From contig JAKZAN010000005.1 in NCBI GenBank assembly GCA_023053545.1, positions 13,206,001 through 13,270,000 on the forward strand: a stretch of DNA of 64,000 bases, given 5' to 3'. Both the position numbers and the translations under genes were made by a program. The notes under the pieces are model-generated. The model was not told the origin of the DNA and did no database searches. It saw nothing but the letters and a program-made list of their open reading frames with translations. Below are positions 39,816 to 55,941 of this stretch, in pieces. Every line of letters starts with the position of its first letter. Positions within the stretch are counted from its first letter, which is position 1. Origin of the DNA: Lepidurus packardi. Its lineage: Eukaryota; Arthropoda; Branchiopoda; Notostraca; Triopsidae.

Positions 39816-41058
39816 ATGATAATTCCACTGATAACTCGTCAAATAAGGTGCATTAGACCTTTACTATGTGCAACTCCAGTTTCTAAAACACTTCACAGCC
39901 AAAGCCTAACCATGAGTCATATTTCGTCTAAATCTACTGCCGCCCAACCAGAACCAGTTTTAATTGAACCCAATACTGAAAAATTGCTGCAGATCTTTGA
40001 TTGTTCCCGTGATCACTACGCAGGCGTTTCAGTACATTCCAACCAAATTAACTCTCCTGACCTCGACTTCGAAACTACTTTAAACAGTACGCTCGGCTTC
40101 CTTCCTTCTTAATATTTACAGTTAATCTGAACATCCTTAATAGCCACAAATTCAATTTTAGTTTACAGAATTTAAATATAAATATTTACATTTATCCTGA
40201 ACATAATATCTCTCTCTTAGATTCATTAACTCAATGGGCCAGGGAGTCTATAAGAGCAGTCTGGTTCCATTTAGAGCCCGAATGTTGTCACTGGATCCCT
40301 CTTCTGATCAAAGCAAGTACAAATCCTCCAAAAAAAAACTCTAGTTAGTATTTAATTGAAGTTTTCCCCACCTTTACACGTTTTCCCCTAGCAAAACTTC
40401 CAATTCCATCGAGCCAACCCGGCTGGCGTCACTTTACTCCGTTGGCTGCCCACCACAGAGCTCTGTACCGTCCCTTCCTTCGCTCACACCATGGTGGGCA
40501 TCGGTGCGATCGTCCACGACTCCGATTCCGACTCCATTTTGGCCATTCGCGAGCGCTTCAACCTCCGCCAACACTTCTGGAAGCTCCCCGGGGGCTACGT
40601 AGACCCCGGCGAAGCGTTGAGCGACGCCGTGGTCCGCGAAGTGAAAGAAGAAACCGGAATTTTGGCCAAATTCCTCGGCTTGGTCTCCGTCCGTCACTTG
40701 GCGGCGCAAGCTAACTTCGGTTGTGGCGATCTTTACTTTGTGGCGCATCTCCAGCCCGATTCCACCGAGATCCAAGCCTGCCCCAGGGAGATCGCCGACT
40801 GCCGTTGGATGAAAGTATACGAAAAGTTGTTCCTAAGAGTCAAGTTTGGGGTTTAACGACTTTCATTTCAAGGTCCAGGAGTTCCTAGAGCATCCTGACG
40901 TTCACTCCAACAACAAACTACTGCTCCAAAGCTTCCTAACCATGAAAAACAGCCCGTATGTCTTCAAACCACTACCTGGGACGCCGATCCACCCGGTGAC
41001 GGGCTTGAAACAGCACTTCTTCTGCCTCCAAACCCGCGAAAGTCATTTAGAATCCTAA
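39816..41058 (+). CDS. Nudix hydrolase, NUDT6-like
   Basis: Exons 39816..40086, 40221..40312, 40392..40814 and 40873..41058 give about 323 aa. The N-terminal half has the NUDT6-type pre-Nudix region (LTQWARESIRAVWFHLEPE, then FQFHRANPAGVTLLRWLP). The Nudix box is complete: GGYVDPGEAL then REVKEETGI, the metal-binding GX5EX7REUXEEXGU pattern. Translation may begin at 39816, giving a possible mitochondrial-type basic leader, or at the later Met at 39912. Exon 2 must end at 40312 for the frame to continue, which makes the intron begin GC (aaagcaagt), a GC-AG splice. Expected activity is hydrolysis of a nucleoside-diphosphate-linked substrate; the substrate is unknown. Confidence 0.85.
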
Positions 41059-44494: not shown

Positions 44495-44592
44495 AGTATT
44501 ACAATTCTTATTATTTTATTAGAATTACAATTCTTATTATTTTATTACAATTACAATTCTTATTATTTTATTACAATTACAATTCTTATTAT
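44495..44592. repeat. AT-rich minisatellite at the retroelement target site
   Basis: About four copies of a unit containing acaattcttattattttatt. The array continues after the element at 53862..53880, so the element inserted into this repeat. Confidence 0.85.
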
Positions 44593-45250: not shown

Positions 45251-47089
45251 CTACAGACGAAGGCTGAGGTTCGGGAAATCAGGGTCGCCGTTGGCTCTAG
45301 TTCTATACAACGGTGGAGGGGGTACGTTATTAGGGGGCATTAGGGCGTAGACAGGGAGATTGATTGGGGTGGTGATTATAGCTGGGTTGTGGGGTGGCTG
45401 TCGAGGGAGCATTTCTACAGTCTCTTCGTCTTGGCGTCGGTGACGGCGTGTTTTTGGTTTTAGGGTTTTGCAGACGGATGATAGGCAGGGTGTGAGTTTC
45501 ACAAGGATTGATAACACGATGACGCCAGCAATGGCTGCTGTACCTATAATTACCCCGTTTTTGAGGTAGTTCGTCCATTGGAACATCCCTTCAAAATTGT
45601 TTTTCGCCTTTAAATCAAACACCAAGTCGCTTATCGTGTGGGTTGCTGATCCGTCAACCGTCTGCATTAGGTCCATAAGGATGTTGATGTTCTCCTGTTG
45701 TTCTTTGTGGTAAGCCGGGTTGATGTTGGCTAGGAGGTTGAAAAGTGTGGTATCTAGTGATAAATTGAAACTGCGGATAAGTTGATAGGATGCTGGTAGC
45801 TTGGTTGCATTGACTGGAGCCCACTCGGTTCCGTTGTATCGGTACGCCGCGCCATTGAAGTTTACTAGGCCGTTCTGCCAAAAACAGTTTTTGAAGGGGT
45901 AAAGTGTAAATCCATCTTTTCCAATTGTATAGTTTCCGGTTCGTGGTTGTGGTCCACAAGAGGTGATTTCCGTTGTGAAGTTGCGTATTTCCTTAGTGCA
46001 TTTCTGGAGCAGCGCGGTCCCTCCGAACGGCAGAACTCTTTCGCAATCATTAAAGCTGAGCAGCTGTGCTGCGAGGATTCCACTAAACTGCGCGATTAAG
46101 GGTACCAGGGCTGCTCTATTTTGTGTGGACATGCAGTTATTAATTTCTATTTCCTTTGCTAATTGATTTGCGCGGAGCACTGTTGAATCTTGAATGTACT
46201 GGAGATGGGCTGCTAGTCCTTCGGGGGCTGAAATATTCCGTTCCGTCTGTTTTGGGCTGGCGATTTTACTGATGGGGTAGAGCTGGATGTAGTGCTTCGG
46301 CATTCCAACGACTTGTAGTACGCCGGACTTTCCGCAGTTTAAGACAGGGGTCTTTTCTACAAAAAATTCGAGTTGATTGTTATTATCCTGTACCCTGCCG
46401 TATTTGCTTGTAGTTGCCGAGTAGTAAAGGGCGATGCCGAGGGCAATTGTGACGTTGGTACAGGTATCCGTTTTTGTTTCGATGTCCGTAGGCTTCCATA
46501 CTACTGTGATGTGGTTTGATGTTACGGATCCGGCATCGTATGAAGCATTTGTGGTACCAAAGGGGGTGTCAACTGAGCAGGTTGGGCATTGCTTGTGAAG
46601 CGTGATTTCTTCCATGAAGCAACTAGCGGTGGTATAAGTTTGCGTAGTCATCCAGACTGGGTCTCCTTTTGGCTGCTCGTCAAAAACCCATTTGTTTCCT
46701 TCACGGTACATCTTGTTACCATGGCAAGTGAGCGTTTGCACCAGATGGTAACACGCGTCTGTGGAGGTGTCCATTGGTTGCTTATCCGTCATGGTGTCGT
46801 GGCCTCCGAAGAAAAACGAGTCGATTTTCAGTTGTCTTTGCCATTGGCCGCAGGCGTATCCTTTAAAGGTTGTTGAAGCTTCTAAATCTTTAGTTAGGAT
46901 GTAGTTCATTGTGGTAGGTGGTAGGTCGCGATCTCTAGGGTTACACTGTGGCATGTTGTTAAGATTGATGAAATTTAGGGTTTTCGGGTTGCTACAGTTG
47001 CAGATAGTGATGTCGATGGCTAGCGTCGTTGACAAAAATCTAGTGCTGACGAAGAAGATGAAGAAGCCGTAATATGGTGTTTGAAACAT
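45251..47089 (-). CDS. env: env-like transmembrane glycoprotein of the LTR retrotransposon
   Basis: 612 aa, uninterrupted. It has an N-terminal hydrophobic signal, a Cys-rich ectodomain with many N-x-S/T sites, a region before the membrane with helical character, one membrane span at about residues 510-530 and a cytoplasmic tail of about 80 residues that is basic then Pro-rich. This is the architecture of a class I-like envelope, but I could not assign it to a known viral fusion protein family, and I saw no obvious furin site. The ATG directly follows a pyrimidine-rich tract and an AG, suggesting translation from a spliced RNA. It would confer membrane targeting or infectivity by analogy with errantiviruses; this is inference. 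Confidence 0.8.
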   Translation of the reverse strand: MFQTPYYGFFIFFVSTRFLSTTLAIDITICNCSNPKTLNFINLNNMPQCNPRDRDLPPTTMNYILTKDLEASTTFKGYACGQWQRQLKIDSFFFGGHDTMTDKQPMDTSTDACYHLVQTLTCHGNKMYREGNKWVFDEQPKGDPVWMTTQTYTTASCFMEEITLHKQCPTCSVDTPFGTTNASYDAGSVTSNHITVVWKPTDIETKTDTCTNVTIALGIALYYSATTSKYGRVQDNNNQLEFFVEKTPVLNCGKSGVLQVVGMPKHYIQLYPISKIASPKQTERNISAPEGLAAHLQYIQDSTVLRANQLAKEIEINNCMSTQNRAALVPLIAQFSGILAAQLLSFNDCERVLPFGGTALLQKCTKEIRNFTTEITSCGPQPRTGNYTIGKDGFTLYPFKNCFWQNGLVNFNGAAYRYNGTEWAPVNATKLPASYQLIRSFNLSLDTTLFNLLANINPAYHKEQQENINILMDLMQTVDGSATHTISDLVFDLKAKNNFEGMFQWTNYLKNGVIIGTAAIAGVIVLSILVKLTPCLSSVCKTLKPKTRRHRRQDEETVEMLPRQPPHNPAIITTPINLPVYALMPPNNVPPPPLYRTRANGDPDFPNLSLRL

Positions 47090-47165
47090 CTGTATTTGAG
47101 AAATACGAGAAAGGATAAGAACAACAACAACGAAAAAGAAAATTTGATAAGAGAGAAAAAAAAAA
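47090..47165 (-). promoter_or_regulatory. candidate 3' splice acceptor for env subgenomic RNA
   Basis: In the sense strand a long pyrimidine-rich stretch (ttttttttttctctctt, then cctttctcgtatttctc) ends in aaatacag abutting the env ATG at 47089. This is a textbook 3' splice-site layout. Confidence 0.65.
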
Positions 47166-47167
47166 AT

Positions 47168-48085
47168 TCAGTCCCAGATTTCGTCAGGTGTCTCTATGTC
47201 TGGGACTATAAACTTCGCAATTTCGGTGAAGGGTGTGTTGGGGCTAGGGTTGCGACTGCCTGGGGGGGTGACATAAGGAAGGGTTTGGTAGTCCGATACC
47301 TCACTGACCGATATGACTGGAGGGATGGCGAAGGGTTTGGTTCTGTAGAGGCCAGCGAACCGAAATTGGCAAAAAAAAGTTGTATGAGCGAAGGCGTCGG
47401 ACCGGTGGATGTGATGTAGTTTAGAGTGTGGGCACGGTAGGAATGTGTCCTGGAGGTCGGGGTGTTTGTTTCGGCATTCCTCCAGGTGCCCCATCGTGTC
47501 CCTGGTATTGACGTCATTGTTACAATAAGGGCATGTGAAATTGTCCTCTTTTCCTGCATTGGTTGGGGTGGGGTGAGTGAGGCACCGGCTGTGCGCCTGT
47601 TTGGGTTCGAGGTTCGCTTCTTCGGTCTGGTAACCTACCTCCCCGCCGATAGGTTGGGGGGTGAACTGGTGGATGTATAGGTCGTTTGACAGACCGAAGT
47701 GGTCGGGTCTTGGTAGTCCGTGGTCTGGACATACCTGACGCTCGAACCCTTCCACGAGGATTGTTTTGTTTCCATATGGGAGTTTATGAAACGCGGTCGG
47801 TGTCGGTGGCGGGTGCACGTCCGGGTGGTTGCGTCCCAGGCTTTTCACGCTCTCGTAATGCATGAGAGCGTGGGCGTACGGGCAGTCGTCCAGGATGTGG
47901 CGCATGTACGCCTCCGTTGGGATGTGGTGGGTTGCATCGAATCCGCAGACGTGCAGGCCTGTACTTATCCACGAATTTCCTTGGGCCTCGCGGCACTCCG
48001 CGAGGTGTTCTGCCGCCTCCGCTAGCGTGAAGTAACCTCCGCAAGCGTAGGGGCAGATGTAGACGGTTTGGGGGGTGGATCTCAT
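47168..48085 (-). CDS. GTSF1/Asterix-like protein with two pairs of CHHC-type zinc fingers, encoded by the retrotransposon
   Basis: 305 aa between pol and env. Four finger-like units form two pairs. Finger 2 is C47-x5-H53-x9-H63-x4-C68 and finger 4 is C218-x5-H224-x9-H234-x4-C239, close to the CHHC consensus C-x5-H-x9-H-x3-C of GTSF1, U11-48K and TRM13. Finger 1 (C11, H27, C31) and finger 3 (C185, H200, C204) lack the first His but have an extra Cys (C15, C188) that could replace it. The linker after finger 3, CRNKHPDL, matches the GTSF1-type linker after its first finger, and RNHPDV follows finger 2. The protein therefore looks like a duplicated GTSF1 core. The tail is acidic with a terminal Trp (ETPDEIWD), reminiscent of the acidic Trp tail by which GTSF1 contacts PIWI. 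GTSF1 is a PIWI-piRNA silencing cofactor; a decoy role here is inference. Confidence 0.8.
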   Translation of the reverse strand: MRSTPQTVYICPYACGGYFTLAEAAEHLAECREAQGNSWISTGLHVCGFDATHHIPTEAYMRHILDDCPYAHALMHYESVKSLGRNHPDVHPPPTPTAFHKLPYGNKTILVEGFERQVCPDHGLPRPDHFGLSNDLYIHQFTPQPIGGEVGYQTEEANLEPKQAHSRCLTHPTPTNAGKEDNFTCPYCNNDVNTRDTMGHLEECRNKHPDLQDTFLPCPHSKLHHIHRSDAFAHTTFFCQFRFAGLYRTKPFAIPPVISVSEVSDYQTLPYVTPPGSRNPSPNTPFTEIAKFIVPDIETPDEIWD

Positions 48086-48088
48086 ATT

Positions 48089-48110
48089 CTATGGTAGTAT
48101 AATAATATTT
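48089..48110 (-). promoter_or_regulatory. candidate 3' splice acceptor for the GTSF1-like frame
   Basis: The sense strand reads tattattatactaccatag three bases before the ATG at 48085. The pyrimidine tract is weak, so confidence is modest. Confidence 0.4.
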
Positions 48111-48190: not shown

Positions 48191-51100
48191 TTAAGTATAC
48201 TTCGCCGGGGGGCGAAGAGTTGACCGATCTCTTAAAGTTACTGGTCGTCGAACATTTCCCTGAGGGGGAGTTAATGCTTGTGCAGGTTGTGACGTTGATG
48301 CTTGTGCTGTGCCGGCATTTTGAGCTCTAATAACGGCTCTGGGTACGGGTGGAAGTGGGGGTACGGGTGAAGTTGCGGGGGGTACTGTTGGGTTTGACAT
48401 TACTAACGGTATTGGTGGAACGAACGCTTGAGGTGGCGTTACTAGTACCGGGGTTGGTTTTCGCGGGATTATAGCAAGTTGTCTTGGGGAAAAAGGAGAG
48501 GGTGTTTCCTGTAACACAGGGGTAGGGGCAGTATAGAGTGGGGGTGCGGGTTCTGAAGACCACGGGCTAGTGTCGCGGCAAGTTTTTAGTCTGTTTACGT
48601 GGACGATTTCTGTTTTTAAAGTTTTTGTGTCTCTAATTCGCACATTTACTGGAGAAGTAAACTCGATGATTCTGAAGGGACCTAGCCATTTTAAATCTAG
48701 TTTCCTCGCTAATCCAGGTTTTGTCATTGGGTTATTTAAAAAGACCTTTTGACCTACAGTGTATGTTACTTCTTTTGAATTCCGATCGTAATAATGTTTT
48801 TGATTTTCTGTTGCTATTTGAAGATTTCTACCGGCTACTTCCCACGCTGAAGTGAGGCGTGCTAACATTTCTGCTTTGTAATCTACCGCTAATGCATAAC
48901 TCTTCCGAGGTTGTGTCATTAGCGTGTCGATTGGTAGGGTAGGGTCCCTACCGTAAAGGAGGAAAAATGGGGATTCTAAACTGGAAGATTGTAGCGATGT
49001 TCTGTATGCGAACAGAACGTATGGGATGTGCGAATCCCAATCCTGTTGTGATTTTTCAACATAATGTTTCAATAAGGAAATTAAAGTTTTATTGAACCTT
49101 TCTGTCAACCCGTCTGTCTGCGGGTGGTACGCAGTTGTGCGAACCTGTTTGATTTCAAGAAGTTTGCAGATTTCTGCCACTAGCTGGGACATGAAATTAG
49201 TGCCTCTATCTGAGAGTAGGATACGGGGTGTACCATGGCGAGCTATGATTTCTTCCACAAAAAGTCTAGCTATAGTGTCTGCTTTCTGATCGGGTATCGC
49301 AAATGCTTCTGGCCATTTGGTGAAATAATCTGTAAAGACAACTATATACTTGTTACCTCGGTAGGTCTGTGGTAAGGGGCCTACAACGTCTACGGCAATA
49401 CGTTCCATAGGCGCCGAAACCGGTTCCAACGGAACCATAGGGGCTGGCGCTGTACGAATAGTATCCTTGTGTCTTGCACAGGATTCACAGGATTTGCAGT
49501 ATCGTTTAATTTCAGAATACATTCTAGGCCAATAAAAACGCTGCCTAACTTTTTCGTGTGTCTTTTGGAAAGCTAAATGTCCTGACAGTTTGTGATCATG
49601 TAGGGACACCATTATCTCCTTCCTGATAGCCTCGGGGGCTACTATTTGTTCTGTAATTTCTTGTGATTTTTTCATTTGAAGGAGGTGTAGGAGTAACCCG
49701 TTTTCGTCTAAAATAAATTTTTCTAATGAATAGAGCCATGCTGGGTGCTTAGGGCTATTATCCTGTAATTCTCCGTTTTCTAGATAGTATACAATAGCTG
49801 AACAAAAAGGGTCTTCTAACTGAAGTTCGCGTAAGGTGGTGGTATCAAACGTATCACTGTTTGATATTGCATGGACAGGAATTCGGGATAGACAGTCGGC
49901 ATTGCCGTGTTTAACACCGGGACGGTATTTGATTTCCATATCGTAATCTTGAAGTTTGAGTGACCATCTTGCCAATTTAGACGAGCTGTCCTTGTTGTTC
50001 ATGAGCCATTTTAACGGGTTGTGGTCTGTAACTACTTTAAAATGTCTACCGTATAGGTAAGGATGAAAATGTTTAACTGCAAATATAATCGCTAAAGCTT
50101 CTCTTTCGACCGTGGCGTAACGTGATTCGGTATCACTTAGAGTTTTGCTAGCGTAAGCAATAACTTTTTCTTGGCCGTTATGAGTTTGGCTTAACACAGC
50201 GCCTAGTCCTGTGTCACAGGCATCTGTGTAAAGTATGAATGGTATTGAAAAATCTGGGTAAGCTAAGATAGGGCTACTCATTAGTAATTCTTTTAAAGTG
50301 GTAAAAGCTGAATGTTCTTTGTCTGTCCAGTTAAATTTTATGTGTTTCTTGGTTAGTTTATTCAACGGTCTTGCTATACGTGCGTAGTCTTTGATAAATC
50401 GCCTGTAGTATCCTGCTAAACCTAGGAAGGAACGATTTTCCTTTACGGATCGTGGTGTCGGGTAGTTTTTAACGGCTGAAATCTTTTCTGGGTCTGGTTG
50501 AACTCCTTCTGCGGAGACAATGTGACCTAGATATTTAACTAAAGGTTTGCAAAAATTACATTTCTTGGCTTTTAGTTTTAAACCTGCGGCTCGTAGTCTA
50601 GAAAAAATTTCACGGAGGTGAACAATGTGTTCAGGGAACGTTTTGGAAAAAACTATAATGTCGTCTAAGTATACTAACACGTTCTCAAGTCTATTCTTGG
50701 CGGCGAGAATTTTATCCATTAGCCTTTGAAAAGTTGCTGGGGCGTTAGATAACCCAAAAGGTAAACAATTAAACTCGTAATGACCAAAATTTGTCGTAAA
50801 TGCTGTCTTGTACCTATCTTCCTCTGCTACCTCGACTTGCCAGTATCCTGATGCTAAGTCCATAACTGAAAAATAACGTGCCTTTCCCAACTTATCCAAG
50901 GTATCGTCGATTCGTGGTAAGGGGTACACATCTCTCCTTGTAACTGCATTAATTTTACGAAAATCTACGCAAAACCTTTGTGTGCCATCTTTCTTTTTAA
51001 CTAAGACTACTGGTGCTCCCCAAGGAGAGGAAGAAGGTCTAATGATATCTCTATGTAACATTTCGTCCACATGCTGTCTAATAACTGCTTTTTGTGCTTC

Positions 51101-52045
51101 TGGCGCTCTGTACGGACGTTGGTAGATAGGATTGGAACCCCTGGTGTGAATGGTATGTTTAACAAGTTTTGTACGGCCTAAATCGTTATCATCTTTTGCA
51201 AAAATATCCCGAAATTCAATCAATAATTTTAATAGCTCATCCCTGTGCGAAGGGGTAACATTCGACAGGTCGAAGTTCTCGAGTAACGGATACTCTGCAC
51301 TTGGAAGTGAGTGCACTGCTGCAATCACGGACACTCTGGCGTTACAAACTCTTCCTATAACTGTGTTTCGTTTCAACACAACATCGTTAGGACCATTATT
51401 CCAAAATGAGACTGGGATTTTACCGCATCCCTTCCCTATTACGATTGCCGGTTCGCTACAAACGAATTCGTCGTCTAGCTGAACAGGCTCAAAAATAATT
51501 TCCGCTCCATGCGAGTTATCGTGCTCGGATTTGGCAGTAGCAATGACTCTACTGTACGCGGGTATTTTCACTTGCTTATGCAGTTGCACTCTGGAACTGT
51601 TCCTTGCAAGGCCTACCACATTAATTTCTTTCTGCATGCTTATTTCCATTGACGCGCCGTCAATCACTATACTCTGGCTCTGAATCGCATCCATACCGAG
51701 GATGATGTCGTGAGCTAACTCTTCTGCTACGTAACATTCAACTTTGAATTTACGGCCTTGAATTTCAAAAGGTAATTCATAACAACCGAAGACATTCAGG
51801 TTCTCTCCTGTTACTGATTTCAAGATTGTATCAGTTTGAACTGGCTCTCCTGCAATGTCCGGTGTCAGCAAATTAAACGCTTGCTTATTCATAACTGTAA
51901 CGCCTGCCCCTGTGTCAACTAAACATCTAAATGGGATTGATCCTATAATAACTTTTGCAAAAATTCTACCGGGGGGTCTCCTAAAAAGGTTTTTCCTTCT
52001 CCTACCTGGTGCCAACTGACCTTTTTGTTGCGCCACAGTCAGCAC
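48191..52045 (-). CDS. pol: Pol polyprotein: protease, reverse transcriptase, RNase H, integrase
   Basis: About 1284 residues, uninterrupted. Aspartic protease with DTGAG near residue 43; reverse transcriptase with DFRKIN, LPFGLSNAP and catalytic YLDDIIVF near residue 460; RNase H with YTDACDTGLGAVLSQ near 605; integrase with an HHCC zinc finger near 815-850, DDE residues in DVVGPLP (near 886), SDRGTNF (near 945) and the Glu of TDGLTERFN (near 983), then a GPY/F-type module (KWLGPFRI near 1120). The tail is Pro-rich. Domain order and motifs are Ty3/gypsy. The frame is -1 relative to gag and open through the gag stop, so a gag-pol fusion by frameshift or reinitiation is likely; the listed start is a GTG codon. 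Confidence 0.95.
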   Translation of the reverse strand: MLTVAQQKGQLAPGRRRKNLFRRPPGRIFAKVIIGSIPFRCLVDTGAGVTVMNKQAFNLLTPDIAGEPVQTDTILKSVTGENLNVFGCYELPFEIQGRKFKVECYVAEELAHDIILGMDAIQSQSIVIDGASMEISMQKEINVVGLARNSSRVQLHKQVKIPAYSRVIATAKSEHDNSHGAEIIFEPVQLDDEFVCSEPAIVIGKGCGKIPVSFWNNGPNDVVLKRNTVIGRVCNARVSVIAAVHSLPSAEYPLLENFDLSNVTPSHRDELLKLLIEFRDIFAKDDNDLGRTKLVKHTIHTRGSNPIYQRPYRAPEAQKAVIRQHVDEMLHRDIIRPSSSPWGAPVVLVKKKDGTQRFCVDFRKINAVTRRDVYPLPRIDDTLDKLGKARYFSVMDLASGYWQVEVAEEDRYKTAFTTNFGHYEFNCLPFGLSNAPATFQRLMDKILAAKNRLENVLVYLDDIIVFSKTFPEHIVHLREIFSRLRAAGLKLKAKKCNFCKPLVKYLGHIVSAEGVQPDPEKISAVKNYPTPRSVKENRSFLGLAGYYRRFIKDYARIARPLNKLTKKHIKFNWTDKEHSAFTTLKELLMSSPILAYPDFSIPFILYTDACDTGLGAVLSQTHNGQEKVIAYASKTLSDTESRYATVEREALAIIFAVKHFHPYLYGRHFKVVTDHNPLKWLMNNKDSSSKLARWSLKLQDYDMEIKYRPGVKHGNADCLSRIPVHAISNSDTFDTTTLRELQLEDPFCSAIVYYLENGELQDNSPKHPAWLYSLEKFILDENGLLLHLLQMKKSQEITEQIVAPEAIRKEIMVSLHDHKLSGHLAFQKTHEKVRQRFYWPRMYSEIKRYCKSCESCARHKDTIRTAPAPMVPLEPVSAPMERIAVDVVGPLPQTYRGNKYIVVFTDYFTKWPEAFAIPDQKADTIARLFVEEIIARHGTPRILLSDRGTNFMSQLVAEICKLLEIKQVRTTAYHPQTDGLTERFNKTLISLLKHYVEKSQQDWDSHIPYVLFAYRTSLQSSSLESPFFLLYGRDPTLPIDTLMTQPRKSYALAVDYKAEMLARLTSAWEVAGRNLQIATENQKHYYDRNSKEVTYTVGQKVFLNNPMTKPGLARKLDLKWLGPFRIIEFTSPVNVRIRDTKTLKTEIVHVNRLKTCRDTSPWSSEPAPPLYTAPTPVLQETPSPFSPRQLAIIPRKPTPVLVTPPQAFVPPIPLVMSNPTVPPATSPVPPLPPVPRAVIRAQNAGTAQASTSQPAQALTPPQGNVRRPVTLRDRSTLRPPAKYT

Positions 52046-52047
52046 CT

Positions 52048-53133
52048 CTAGTTTGATTGGTTCGTTCGGCAGTAAGCTGCTATGTGTCCTCGTCTACGAC
52101 ATGACCAACATTCAATGTTGGGATTTCGGGGTCGTGACATGCCTTGTGGCCTATCAGTATGGTTGCCTGGGGGGAACCGTGGTTCAAAGCTAGGGCGTGG
52201 TCGGAAGGTGGGGTTTCTAGGGTTGAAGTTGTTCCTGCTTGGGGACTGGAATCTGTTCGTATTTCGTGAGGACTGGTCCGAGAAACGGACTTGTCTATCG
52301 CCGCTGCGAGATGTGTCGCGATACGGGTTTGAGGGATTGTATGAATTTTGGGATCTATATCGGTTCGGGGATCTGTATCCCGAGCTGTTTCGATCGTAAG
52401 AGTACGAATTGGGAGGTTTGTTCGGGGTAGTGCTTCTGCTCCTGCGGCTGAACGACGGTTCGCTAGTAGTAAGCGCAGCAACAACTGCTGTAAGTTTTTC
52501 GATTTCATTCTGAAGGCTAACATTGTGGGGAACTGCTACTTCGTTAGCTTCTTCTCGAGCTGCAACTTCTATAGCTTCGCGAAGGTTCGCTGGGTTGGCG
52601 CTTAGAACGTAGCGTTTTAAATAAGGAAGAAGTCCTCTGATAAAATTTAGGCGCATGATTTTGTCTAATATTTCGTTCCCAGCTGGGGGGCTATCGTTTT
52701 CGTGGACTCGTCTTGTGAGTGAACGAATTTTGTCTGCAAAATCACGAACTGGCTGTTTTGCTTCTTGATTGCAATTCTGGAGTTTGACTATAGCTTGTGA
52801 TTCGTGGTGACTGTCACCGTAGCGTTCGGAGAGAGCTGTTTTGAATTCTGTGTAAGTTGTTGGGCGGGGAGAAATAGTGTTGTAATAGGCACCGGCGCCT
52901 CCTTTTAATTTAATTACGGCTACTTTGAGTAGGTGTGGTTCGGACCATCCTATTGTACTACCAATGCGTTCTAAATCTTGGAAAAATCGTCTTACTGATG
53001 CATCGTCGGATTCTCCTGTAAAATCAGGGATCGTGTGCATCATCGTAGAGTTAAGTAATGGAGATAGGATTTCATTTAGCTGTTCTGGGGTTATTGATAA
53101 GGGAACTGTGGACGTTGATCCTACAGCGGTCAT
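52048..53133 (-). CDS. gag: Gag polyprotein
   Basis: 361 aa. The capsid-like region (IPDFTGESDDASVRRFFQDL, LKVAVIKLKGGAGAYY, FKTALSERYGD, VRDFADKIRSLTRRV) is typical of Ty3/gypsy Gag. An Arg/Ser/Asn-rich basic region follows. One nucleocapsid zinc knuckle sits near the C-terminus (CWSCRRRGHIAAYC, CX2CX4HX4C). The ATG lies about 20 nt downstream of a consensus splice donor in the leader. The stop at 52048..52050 overlaps the open pol frame. Confidence 0.93.
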   Translation of the reverse strand: MTAVGSTSTVPLSITPEQLNEILSPLLNSTMMHTIPDFTGESDDASVRRFFQDLERIGSTIGWSEPHLLKVAVIKLKGGAGAYYNTISPRPTTYTEFKTALSERYGDSHHESQAIVKLQNCNQEAKQPVRDFADKIRSLTRRVHENDSPPAGNEILDKIMRLNFIRGLLPYLKRYVLSANPANLREAIEVAAREEANEVAVPHNVSLQNEIEKLTAVVAALTTSEPSFSRRSRSTTPNKPPNSYSYDRNSSGYRSPNRYRSQNSYNPSNPYRDTSRSGDRQVRFSDQSSRNTNRFQSPSRNNFNPRNPTFRPRPSFEPRFPPGNHTDRPQGMSRPRNPNIECWSCRRRGHIAAYCRTNQSN

Positions 53134-53152: not shown

Positions 53153-53159
53153 ACTTACG
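53153..53159 (-). promoter_or_regulatory. candidate splice donor in the retrotransposon leader
   Basis: The sense strand reads aatcGTAAGTacaacc between the 5' LTR and the Gag ATG, an exact match to the 5' splice-site consensus GTAAGT. Confidence 0.6.
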
Positions 53160-53231: not shown

Positions 53232-53249
53232 GAAGAAACGCTGCCACCA
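53232..53249 (-). promoter_or_regulatory. primer-binding site
   Basis: The sense strand starts TGGTGGCAGCG one base after the 5' LTR, complementary to a tRNA 3' end in CCA. I could not assign the tRNA. Confidence 0.65.
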
Positions 53250-53250
53250 G

Positions 53251-53861
53251 TGTGATAGTCAGTTTATTCAGTGTATTCACCCTAACTATCAGCGGGGTCG
53301 GTACAGGTTTAGAGAGGAGGGACAGGGGAGGGGTCGGGTCGATACTGGCTTCGGGCTAGGGCTTCGCTGGCTTCGGGTGGGTTCGGTCTCGATAGACGGT
53401 GATGTCGGCTGAGGACTGCTGGGGGATTGCTCGGCGGCTGGGTATCTGCGGTACGGAGCAGGGAGCGTAAACTGGCAACAGCGGGTGAACTGGTCTTACG
53501 GGGACTGAGACGGAGGGCGAACTGGTTGCTGTTGTCGTCTGGTGGGTCCGTATTTATAGGCCCGTTGGACATCGTTATCGGGGTGCGCTTCTGTTGTTTC
53601 TACCTTCCGCCCCCCTCCCTTGGGTTGGTATCGCTGTTTTGCTTCTTCTTGGGTCGTTGGACTTCGGAACTTAAGATTACCTTTGGACTGCGTATAGACA
53701 TTCACGAGGGTTCTGGCCTCGGCACGAGAGATGTCTTTACGTTGTCCTTTACATTTATGGTCAACCGTGTTTATCGTATATTCAGTGTTAATTTCTTAAC
53801 TCTGCCTAGTATATTGTTATCGAGATTTAAATTTATACTATTACTAATTCTACTCCTTACA
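53251..53861 (-). repeat. 5' LTR (sense orientation minus)
   Basis: 611 bp, identical by eye to 44593..45203. Sense-strand TATAAATA at plus positions 53551..53558 probably drives the genomic RNA. Confidence 0.95.
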
Positions 53862-54322
53862 TTATTTTATTACAATTCTTATGTTAAGTATTTTTTATTT
53901 TATTGAGTTAAAGTACTAGTTCATCTGTAATGTAAATCCTTTAAAGTAAAATTAAGTTGTATATTATTATTATTACGGAGGAAATAAAACAAAAATCCGT
54001 CAGAATTAAAAGCAAGCCGCTTTATTAAACGTTGCGTTTTGTGCCAAACGCCACCTGGTTAGCAAACGCTTAAATCAATCTTACATGTGCTGCCAAGTTG
54101 TCAAAACTTTACCCCTGACGAGCAATACAAGATCTCGCACTAAAGCGCATAATATCCCCTTTTCTTTTTTTATAAAAATTCATATAAATTCCAAGTCTAG
54201 AAAAGAACTCGAATGTCTGGAGCGATACACGTTAAAAGTACTAATCTTTCAATAACGACGAGGATGGTGATTCCTTCCTCCTCCGTTGAATGGTTTTTGG
54301 CATCCATTAAACTGCTTTTTGA
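53862..54322. other. intergenic, retroelement flank
   Basis: AT-rich. It starts with the continuation of the target minisatellite and probably includes the 3' UTR of the minus-strand MATH-BTB gene. No gene is seen. Confidence 0.5.
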
Positions 54323-55941
54323 TCAATCTTCGAAATCTAATTCAGGATCAGCTGTCATCAAACGCCATGTCCACCACGCCAGTAAACATACCGCCAAGCT
54401 TACGACGATTTCCAAGTACCACTTAATGGTGGAAGCATTTTCGGTCCAAAAAGTGTCCAAGCTGAAAGACGGTTGGAATACTGGCTCCTCTTCCAAGGCA
54501 ACAGGAGGACTTGGAGGCGTTTTCACAGACACGAGCGCCTCTAAGACCTCAGCGGCATCTTTCGGATGTTTCTGCTTCAAGTCGCGCCACTGGGAAGACT
54601 GAAGCCAGTACTTGACACTTTTCAGCTTCAGTACCTTGAAGCATTCCCCTTGAACGCACTTATAATCTGGGTACTTCAACGCAGCGGCCAGTATCTTAAG
54701 GACGTTGTTATTGCGTACAGGAATAACAAGCAGGCAGTGCTTAATGAGCATATCCACTCCCAATGCATAGGCCAAAGCGAATAGGGCTTCCTTTTCAGAC
54801 TCCTTTTCCAAATCTGGGAACTTGCCCGCTTCCATGAAGAAAATCAGGTTCTCAACGTCACATTCCTCATGCTTCTCCAGTTCTACTTCTAGGACTCGTA
54901 TGACAAAATCTTCAGTGGGTTCAGCGTCACGAATCGGCCAGCACTTCCGCACCATCTGGTCCCAATTTGATAACTGTTTGAAGAAAGTGCTGTTGAAACG
55001 AAGTTTGGAACCAAAACAATGGAGCGTTCCGTAGGAGATGGGATTAAAGTACCATATGATATGGAATGCTTTCTTCTGCATTTCGTTCTGCAGTAGTTCA
55101 AGCATGCTCTCTCTCGATGGTACGTCCTCAGGCACGCGGGCTTTCTGTGCTACGATTGCAGGTTGTCTAGCGATTCCAAAGATTTTGCAGGCGATCGCGA
55201 ATGGCTGGCAGCTGCAGGCCGAGCTGGATTCGCAGGGACAGTAAGGAATGGATGTTGATTTCACTGCAAAGACCCAACGCGAGCCAGGGGACCAGCTCGT
55301 TTTGTGATAAAGCTCGAATGACGCATTACATTTGCGGGTAGGGAGATTCAACTCAACCACCGTCGGACCGTTAAAGATGGGCGAGAAACGCCAGAAGCTT
55401 TTATGAGTCTTAAAATTGAGCTCAAACTCCAAATGGGTCAACTGCAGCTTACTGATCCGCAGCTCCAGCCAGCCTTTCATCCCCGCAACAGTGAATTCGG
55501 GTGACTCGAAATTCATAGTTGCGTCATCCTGTTTCAAGAGGCGAATGGCGTCGCGAAAATTTTCCATTGACCAAGAAACAGACGCGAGTAACTTCCGACT
55601 CATGGGAATGTGGCTGGAAAGCTGGCTCCCAGACCCAGAATCCAGCTTCTGCCTCTCCATTGTACAGTAAAATGTCTAAAAGAATACAGTTAGCTAAGAC
55701 CCCATTACTGTTGTACTAGAGTGTCCAAAGAAGAAACGGGCGAAGAACATTACAGTACACTTTGGACACTATAGAACACTCTACCTTGCATTGTTCCTTT
55801 ATAACAAAATTCTTTTACCTTTGTAGCTTTCCCACTAGCTTTGAAGCTCCAATGAAGCAACAAGATCAACACAAAAAGAGCCGCAGGTAGCGCAAAACGT
55901 TTCACAGACGTACATCGCATCCTTTGCCCTAGAGCAAACAA
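54323..55941 (-). CDS. MATH-BTB domain protein with C-terminal (and possible N-terminal) membrane segment
   Basis: The main exon ends at 54323 and holds a 445-codon frame from the Met at 55660. The MATH-like part is SWSMENFRDAIRLL, FESPEFTVAG, GWLELRI. A BTB-like part follows, with ISYGTLHCFGSKLRFNS and the typical second half NLIFFMEAGKFPDLEKE plus LFALAYALGVDMLIKHC. A tail anchor (IVVSLAVCLLAWWTW) is followed by an acidic end. Splicing an upstream exon (55941..55819, donor aaagGTAAAAG) to the acceptor at 55676 keeps the frame and adds a hydrophobic N-terminal anchor (FALPAALFVLILLLHW), giving about 491 aa. MATH-BTB proteins are CUL3 ubiquitin-ligase adaptors; membrane-anchored forms are unusual. 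The 5' exon is less certain than the rest. Confidence 0.72.

Follow-up and report, generated by a model that had tools for sequence, protein, structure and literature searches.

A GTSF1-related accessory gene between pol and env of an LTR retrotransposon from Lepidurus packardi

The retrotransposon and its fourth gene

The window considered here, a stretch of 64,000 nucleotides from the notostracan Lepidurus packardi (assembly GCA_023053545.1, contig JAKZAN010000005.1, positions 13,206,001 to 13,270,000), is located on contig C4 of the 108.6-Mb genome and holds, inserted on the minus strand, a long terminal repeat (LTR) retrotransposon with an additional gene, ORF3, between pol and env. We regard it as nearly certain that ORF3 is a GTSF-related accessory gene. 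A sequence-only reading of the window had placed a frame of 305 amino acids at this point, and such a frame is indeed found, the plus-strand frame over the same bases being interrupted by stops. The features of the element, in window coordinates, are as follows.

47168 to 48085, minus strand: ORF3, 305 amino acids, two GTSF1-type double-finger units and a tail
47876 to 48061, minus strand: ORF3 unit 1, residues 9-70, with a CCHC finger (C11-C15-H27-C31) and a CHHC finger (C47-H53-H63-C68)
47363 to 47545, minus strand: ORF3 unit 2, residues 181-241, with a CCHC finger (C185-C188-H200-C204) and a CHHC finger (C218-H224-H234-C239)
47171 to 47362, minus strand: ORF3 tail, residues 242-305, C-terminus ETPDEIWD
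53251 to 53862, minus strand: 5' LTR, matching the 3' LTR at 612 of 612 bases
53239 to 53250, minus strand: primer-binding-site-like stretch directly after the 5' LTR
53153 to 53158, minus strand: GTAAGT splice-donor-like site in the leader
52048 to 53133, minus strand: gag (Pfam Retrotrans_gag; Ty3_capsid just under cut-off)
48191 to 52045, minus strand: pol, with protease (PR), reverse transcriptase (RT), RNase H (RH) and integrase (IN)
48089 to 48090, minus strand: splice-acceptor-like AG shortly before the start codon of ORF3
47090 to 47091, minus strand: splice-acceptor-like AG adjoining the start codon of env
45251 to 47089, minus strand: env-like open reading frame, 612 amino acids
44593 to 45204, minus strand: 3' LTR

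The two units of ORF3, each of about 60 residues, are 24% identical to one another and align with all eight metal ligands in register. The CHHC-like fingers of the sequence-only reading stand as far as finger 2 is concerned, for which the ligands of both units had been cited correctly. They do not stand for finger 1, which in both units is CCHC rather than CHHC and includes the Cys 15 and Cys 188 mentioned in that reading. Finger 2, moreover, has the spacing H-x4-C, so that neither finger follows the strict motif CPX4HX9HX3C published for CHHC proteins (PMC9539491). Two further features of that reading, the GTSF1-type linker CRNKHPDL (residues 204-211, unit 2) and the terminal acidic Trp motif, were both recovered. 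The spacing C-x2/3-C-x11-H-x3-C-x10/20-C-x5-H-x9-H-x3/4-C has 35 matches among 700,338 six-frame residues of the loci collected, all of them ORF3 units, although these matches are not independent because the loci overlap. Unit 2 is predicted to form two beta-beta-alpha fingers; the full-length single-sequence prediction, with a mean predicted local distance difference test score of 33.7, was not used.

Both LTRs start with TG and end with CA, and the insertion is flanked by the 4-bp repeat TTAT (plus strand; 44589-44592 and 53862-53865), base 53862 being both a base of this repeat and the last base of the identical LTR stretch. Since the LTRs are identical throughout, the insertion is recent. 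The LTR pair, the target duplication and gag followed by PR-RT-RH-IN are features of Ty3/gypsy elements, and the arrangement LTR-gag-pol-env-LTR with a 4-bp target repeat is shared with the env-bearing members of that group, for which we take errantivirus-like to be the label. Unlike these, the present element has a fourth gene between pol and env, and its env-like frame matches no known family: Pfam gave nothing at E<=1, and the PDB nothing credible. Three distant relatives of the env-like protein (27-33% identity) were found in a large protein set, one of them carrying PF00652, presumably a ricin-type lectin domain; viral_contigs yielded nothing for the env-like protein or for its relative P0001.

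The GTAAGT site is present in the window and in all three other gag-bearing loci, and absent from two loci without gag in its usual place, L039 and L040, which are described below. The AG before ORF3 is kept in the window and in 6/6 other aligned copies (the ATG itself being lost in L012), and that before env in the window and in 10/10 (ATG lost in L045). As sequence signals these fit a spliced mRNA for ORF3 and env. A search for the primer tRNA with one pattern (perfect 7-bp acceptor stem) gave four matches, all on bacterial-looking, GC-rich contigs; C95, C154, C245 and C278 are of this appearance, and the assembly may therefore hold contamination.

Close to the insertion lie two frames of host type, namely a NUDIX frame (40491-40856, plus strand; E 7.6e-20) and a frame that is MATH/BTB-like by eye (54323-55660, minus strand; no Pfam match at E<=1). 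Elsewhere in the genome, locus L035 holds a cuticle protein frame (Pfam Chitin_bind_4, 25.8 bits at a cut-off of 25), in keeping with an arthropod host, and, at L035:3284-4087, a polysaccharide lyase frame (Pfam PF14099, E 1.8e-10), which could be a transferred gene and has a similar counterpart at L042:6340-6921.

Relationship of ORF3 to GTSF1

The two-finger piece of mouse GTSF1 scores 33.6 bits against ORF3. The resemblance is not due to chance, because this lies far above the maxima reached after shuffling, namely 8.9 bits in 2000 full shuffles and 15.7 bits in a further 2000 that kept Cys and His in place. GTSF1 (6x46) is likewise the best PDB match for the single ORF3 sequence (E 7.7e-4), and it heads the ten matches found at E<=1 with a profile of seven ORF3 unit sequences (E 6.8e-8), followed by the GTSF1 of a SIWI-complex entry (9nhb; E 2.4e-4). 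The other eight are the multi-finger protein 2i13 (E 8.2e-4, summed from weak repeats of which no single stretch passes), U11-48K (E 0.0034 and 0.015) and five matches from E 0.099 upward, including Rad18 at 0.64; in bits, the profile gives 35.9 for mouse GTSF1 versus 13.3 for Rad18. A second profile, built from the full-length ORF3 alignment without rows L016 and L022 (removed after a stop was found in L016), reaches GTSF1 at E 0.0029, and profile-profile comparison, with small alignments, yields a probability of 95-96%. In the reverse direction, the mouse piece has 27 matches at E<=10 in the six frames of the genome, of which 25 are ORF3 units (E 0.0027 to 0.67) and the remaining two are GTSF-like loci of the host (E 1.2e-5 and 0.0015).

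The comparison with Pfam zf-U11-48K that the sequence-only reading had proposed was negative at E<=1, both for the whole frame and for each of the seven unit rows. No Pfam family exceeds its cut-off for ORF3; zf-Di19 matches below cut-off (E 0.0058-0.039), and UBZ families are absent from the matches at E<=1 for frame and unit rows alike. The same zf-U11-48K family, scanned against the genome, identifies four host loci that read as GTSF-like, two of which (L001 and L003) were compared with ORF3. The ORF3 units align with mouse GTSF1 at scores of 67 and 85, versus 48-55 with these host paralogues; unit 1 and the SIWI-complex GTSF1 score only 46. Of the proposal that the element captured and duplicated a host GTSF1, the GTSF1-type homology and the duplication hold, and the scores do not point to the present GTSF genes of the host as the source, mouse GTSF1 scoring higher.

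Finger 1 of GTSF1 binds RNA via R26, R29, K36 and K39, and a quadruple Ala mutant of these residues no longer accelerates cleavage by MIWI or MILI (PMC9385479). PIWI is contacted through the aromatic residues W98, W107 and W112. At the four positions of the basic ridge, the ORF3 of the window has T,E,E,E (unit 1) and N,D,E,N (unit 2). When both units of the three allele classes described below are considered (gamma unit 2 being taken from the recombinant copy L008), the positions of R29 and K36 are occupied by Glu or Asp in 6/6 unit classes, versus basic residues in 4/4 GTSFs (mouse GTSF1, SIWI-complex GTSF1 and two host GTSFs). The position of K39 is Lys in beta and gamma unit 1. The loss of R26 says little, because among the four GTSFs only that of mouse is basic there. 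Finger 1 contains one and three Lys plus Arg residues in the two window units and six in mouse GTSF1. Since the allele classes are far apart at synonymous sites, the charge reversal at R29 and K36 is old and has been kept. According to the review PMC9539491, tRNA is bound by GTSF1, and binding of structured RNA is common to the three known groups of CHHC proteins; in the same source the GTSF-1 of C. elegans is without the basic residues, and it is a precedent for a GTSF protein lacking that RNA face. On balance the reversal would favour contacts with proteins over binding of tRNA, and the tRNA- or RNA-binding version of the sequence-only reading is not borne out.

The tails of GTSF proteins diverge between animals. 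That of ORF3 holds a single Trp within its acidic end, which is kept in 8/8 further loci readable at that codon (L024 and L025 being counted as one locus), and this conservation is suggestive at best of a PIWI contact.

On these comparisons ORF3 is a member of the GTSF1 branch of CHHC proteins. Like GTSF1/Asterix it has a two-finger module, the linker C-R-x-x-H-P-D (in unit 2), a CHHC finger 2, two predicted beta-beta-alpha fingers, and a tail Trp; unlike it, ORF3 is duplicated, 305 residues long and encoded by a retroelement, with a CCHC finger 1, two charge-reversed RNA-binding residues and only one tail Trp. Because two defining features fail, that is, the strict CHHC finger 1 and the basic RNA face, we do not file ORF3 as a GTSF1 orthologue.

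Copies, selection and allele classes

The search for other copies with the frame, also suggested by the sequence-only reading, found ORF3 upstream of env in 12 of 12 env-bearing loci whose env is >=92% identical to that of the window, and it is conserved rather than decaying; at C4:2.573-2.578 Mb an insertion separates the two genes. The copy on contig C3 (L006) differs from the window at a single one of the 305 codons of ORF3, and the stretches of pol (434 codons) and env (472 codons) that were compared show no codon change. This copy, too, has a complete ORF3 frame, and that on C46 is open over residues 1-288; many others carry stops, frameshifts or deletions. In a sister family (pol about 47% and env about 37% identical to the window family), no ORF3 match was found at E<=0.001 in five main env loci or seven smaller env fragments, and no more than about 250 bp lie between the pol and env matches at C4:855 kb, C41 and C1:12.135 Mb.

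Eight loci (L014, L016-L022) hold the unit-1 part of ORF3 with no window-like env within 1.5 kb on each side. In the three of them covered with wider surroundings (L037, L039 and L040) this part of ORF3 takes the place of gag, beside a pol fragment and between LTR pieces, an arrangement apparently resembling a non-autonomous LTR element; in L039:3162-6363 and L040:3565-6658 leader and ORF3 meet no more than one base away from the donor-like GTAAGT. Relics at L034/L035 (C4:2446626-2446817) and L036:4399-4584 retain only one unit, which resembles unit 1 (30-36% identity), and are possibly older single-unit relatives of ORF3. On C4, at 2.52-2.58 Mb, L041-L046 form a cluster of related copies in the same orientation, three of which (L041, L043 and L046) have the same deletion, by which an RT fragment is fused with ORF3 into a continuous open frame, and are probably segmental duplications, as are, probably, some same-class copies on this contig.

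The ratio of nonsynonymous to synonymous rates (dN/dS) across copies, a further check named in the sequence-only reading, indicates purifying selection on unit 2. Stop codons within a copy were excluded from the counts, and for whole ORF3 and its parts the segments of a copy that lie in different frames were counted together; significance tests and comparisons of ORF3 with env used one frame per copy and gene. Relative to the window, unit 2 gives a dN/dS of 0.07-0.10 (L009, L011, L013, L015 [36 codons] and L024), and between L009 and L015 the value is 0.15. The corresponding ranges are 0.21-0.61 for the linker and 0.22-0.39 for the tail (0.76 between L009 and L015), and for whole ORF3 they are 0.23-0.51 in diverged copies and 0.46-0.59 in non-autonomous copies. 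Nonsynonymous changes in unit 2 are fewer than synonymous ones in L008, L009, L024 and L026 (p 1.6e-7 to 9.8e-10), the deficit not being significant in L010 (6 changes, p 0.36); the unit-2 numbers of L012 (p 3e-3) were not used, this copy being out of frame there. Because copies of one class share descent, these amount to about three lineages rather than six independent tests. We consider it very probable that the function of ORF3 has been maintained. For L007, an ORF3 dN/dS of 0.51 and an apparent protein identity of 95% were rejected as frameshift artefacts, its DNA being 99-100% identical.

Copy by copy, env has diverged from the window far less than ORF3 has. The synonymous changes over sites, with ORF3 given before env, are 54/204 and 8/309 in L008, 79/178 and 16/171 in L009, 44/161 and 6/185 in L010, 86/199 and 16/240 in L012 (inflated by frameshifts), 34/126 and 22/298 in L013, 20/96 and 18/248 in L015, 51/92 and 20/277 in L024, and 46/89 and 11/114 in L026. 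In Fisher tests, which treat sites as independent, the excess in ORF3 has p values of 5e-4 to 2e-21 in eight of nine copies, the ninth being L006 with its one codon change; ORF3 likewise exceeds pol in 5/5 of the diverged copies in which pol is present (p 3e-3 to 5e-20). Positive selection alone was rejected as the cause of ORF3 divergence, the excess lying in synonymous sites.

The DNA of ORF3 falls into three classes, alpha (window, L006, L007), beta (L009, L011, L012, L013, L024, L043, L045) and gamma (L015). Leaving aside the unit-1 segment of L024, beta copies are 94-100% alike where compared, and copies of different classes are 76-90% alike, versus 94-99% for the pol end and env. L008 is a recombinant, as scored at the 140 sites by which alpha and gamma differ: its stretch from 48652 to 47432 is mostly alpha (63 alpha, 9 gamma, 1 other), that from 47423 to 47246 mostly gamma (3 alpha, 40 gamma, 1 other), and from 47216 onward alpha again prevails (20 alpha, 3 gamma). 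None of 10,000 shuffles had so few runs. The corresponding signal in L010 is weak (as few runs in 96 of 10,000 shuffles versus beta and in 1953 of 10,000 versus gamma). Because the classes diverge while the pol end and env stay nearly identical, the alleles of ORF3 predate the sequences on either side of them. The flanks may have been homogenised by recombination while the variety of ORF3 was kept, or else pieces of ORF3 were imported from diverged relatives. Both routes need recombination, and maintained diversity of ORF3 is one possible reading.

Possible functions and significance

Overall, the explanation that we judge best, albeit as somewhat short of an even bet, is that ORF3 acts under selection as a GTSF mimic and weakens the silencing of its own element; that it interferes with the PIWI-interacting RNA (piRNA) pathway is held with the same reserve. 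The ORF3 product, presumably made from a spliced mRNA, would then occupy a GTSF-binding partner, that is, PIWI or a PIWI-associated factor. Since activation of slicing by GTSF1 depends on its contact with RNA, a mimic devoid of this contact would leave silencing of the element weakened. A GTSF-like protein that keeps its partner surfaces without the RNA face would behave as a decoy, and the diversity of ORF3 alleles might reflect selection by host PIWI/GTSF variants. PIWI-clade genes are present in the host: exons L050 and L052 match Siwi best, and in PDB searches with each, all 11 sequences at E<=1e-20 are Piwi proteins. More doubtful is the fuller version, in which ORF3 would be a transposon-encoded anti-piRNA factor, the first of its kind: a duplicated GTSF1 dead in RNA binding and dominant negative on PIWI, its old alleles exchanged by recombination among elements that are nearly the same elsewhere, in the manner of an arms race with host PIWI/GTSF variants.

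Several observations weigh against a GTSF mimic directed at silencing. Unit 2 is strongly conserved, rather than fast-evolving in the way that host-facing surfaces often are, the fast parts being linker and tail; the ORF3 tail has one Trp where GTSF1 has three; and no relative of ORF3 was found outside this genome, neither in a set of 5.8 billion proteins (none of 345 candidates at E<=0.01 and none of 1802 at E<=1) nor in viral_contigs. In addition, the CCHC finger 1 is also similar to ubiquitin-binding and Di19 fingers. ORF3 could instead be a zinc-finger adaptor outside the piRNA pathway, binding ubiquitin, some factor of the host or Gag or Env of the element itself on a GTSF-derived scaffold. 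We consider this unlikely, though the most serious of the rivals, as the unit profile favours mouse GTSF1 over Rad18 and Pfam lists no UBZ family at E<=1. Finger 1 of gamma unit 2, with five Lys plus Arg residues like the SIWI-complex GTSF1, is a further point against the mimic, finger 1 being not acidic overall in every class. Together with the tRNA and structured RNA bound by GTSF1 and other CHHC proteins, it would suit a helper role in RNA binding, with ORF3 holding on to the tRNA primer or the genomic RNA; the acidic residues in all six unit classes and the low basic counts of the window units make such a helper improbable.

The conserved GTSF-type fingers and linker would also be expected of a self-limiting device, a GTSF-like activator directing silencing onto its own element to keep the load tolerable. 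Activation by GTSF1, however, needs RNA binding (PMC9385479), and two of the residues involved are reversed here; with the LTR identity also marking a recent insertion, we give this idea very little credence. Least credible of all is a passenger fragment in decay, despite the many disrupted copies and the non-autonomous derivatives that keep only the unit-1 part with dN/dS of 0.46-0.59. It is already disfavoured by the purifying selection on unit 2 between allele classes, and the complete frame on C3 and the open stretch on C46 argue against it as well.

Among the open-access literature matches listed, no retroelement with a GTSF1-like gene appears, and ORF3, as judged from its sequence, is an LTR-element accessory gene of a sort without precedent among them. 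VANC, a protein of the VANDAL elements of Arabidopsis, presumably has a fold different from that of ORF3. It counteracts epigenetic silencing in a sequence-specific manner (PMC10398659 and PMC5735166) and is, like ORF3, a mobile-element protein against host silencing, as shown for VANC and proposed for ORF3, although it acts in plants and on a different host pathway. Orchid Ty3/gypsy elements have acquired an N6-methyladenosine demethylase domain (PMC9289625) and are likewise LTR elements with an extra protein domain gained, of a different kind and with a different proposed role. In MDG1-group elements, sORF2 is a membrane protein for cell-to-cell transfer and sORF1 is predicted to be helix-turn-helix; these accessory frames share low nonsynonymous rates with ORF3, and neither is described as zinc-finger or GTSF-like in the passages of PMC11952523 considered.

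Only three groups of eukaryotic proteins, U11-48K, TRM13 and GTSF1, were known to carry CHHC fingers (PMC9385479). With a retroelement carrying a further, GTSF1-related kind, the question whether animal transposons encode suppressors of the piRNA pathway, in parallel to viruses, which encode suppressors of RNA interference, becomes testable. The allele pattern of ORF3, with its seemingly maintained diversity, would furthermore be unusual for a gene of a retroelement, and the element may be turning a modified part of the host defence against its host.
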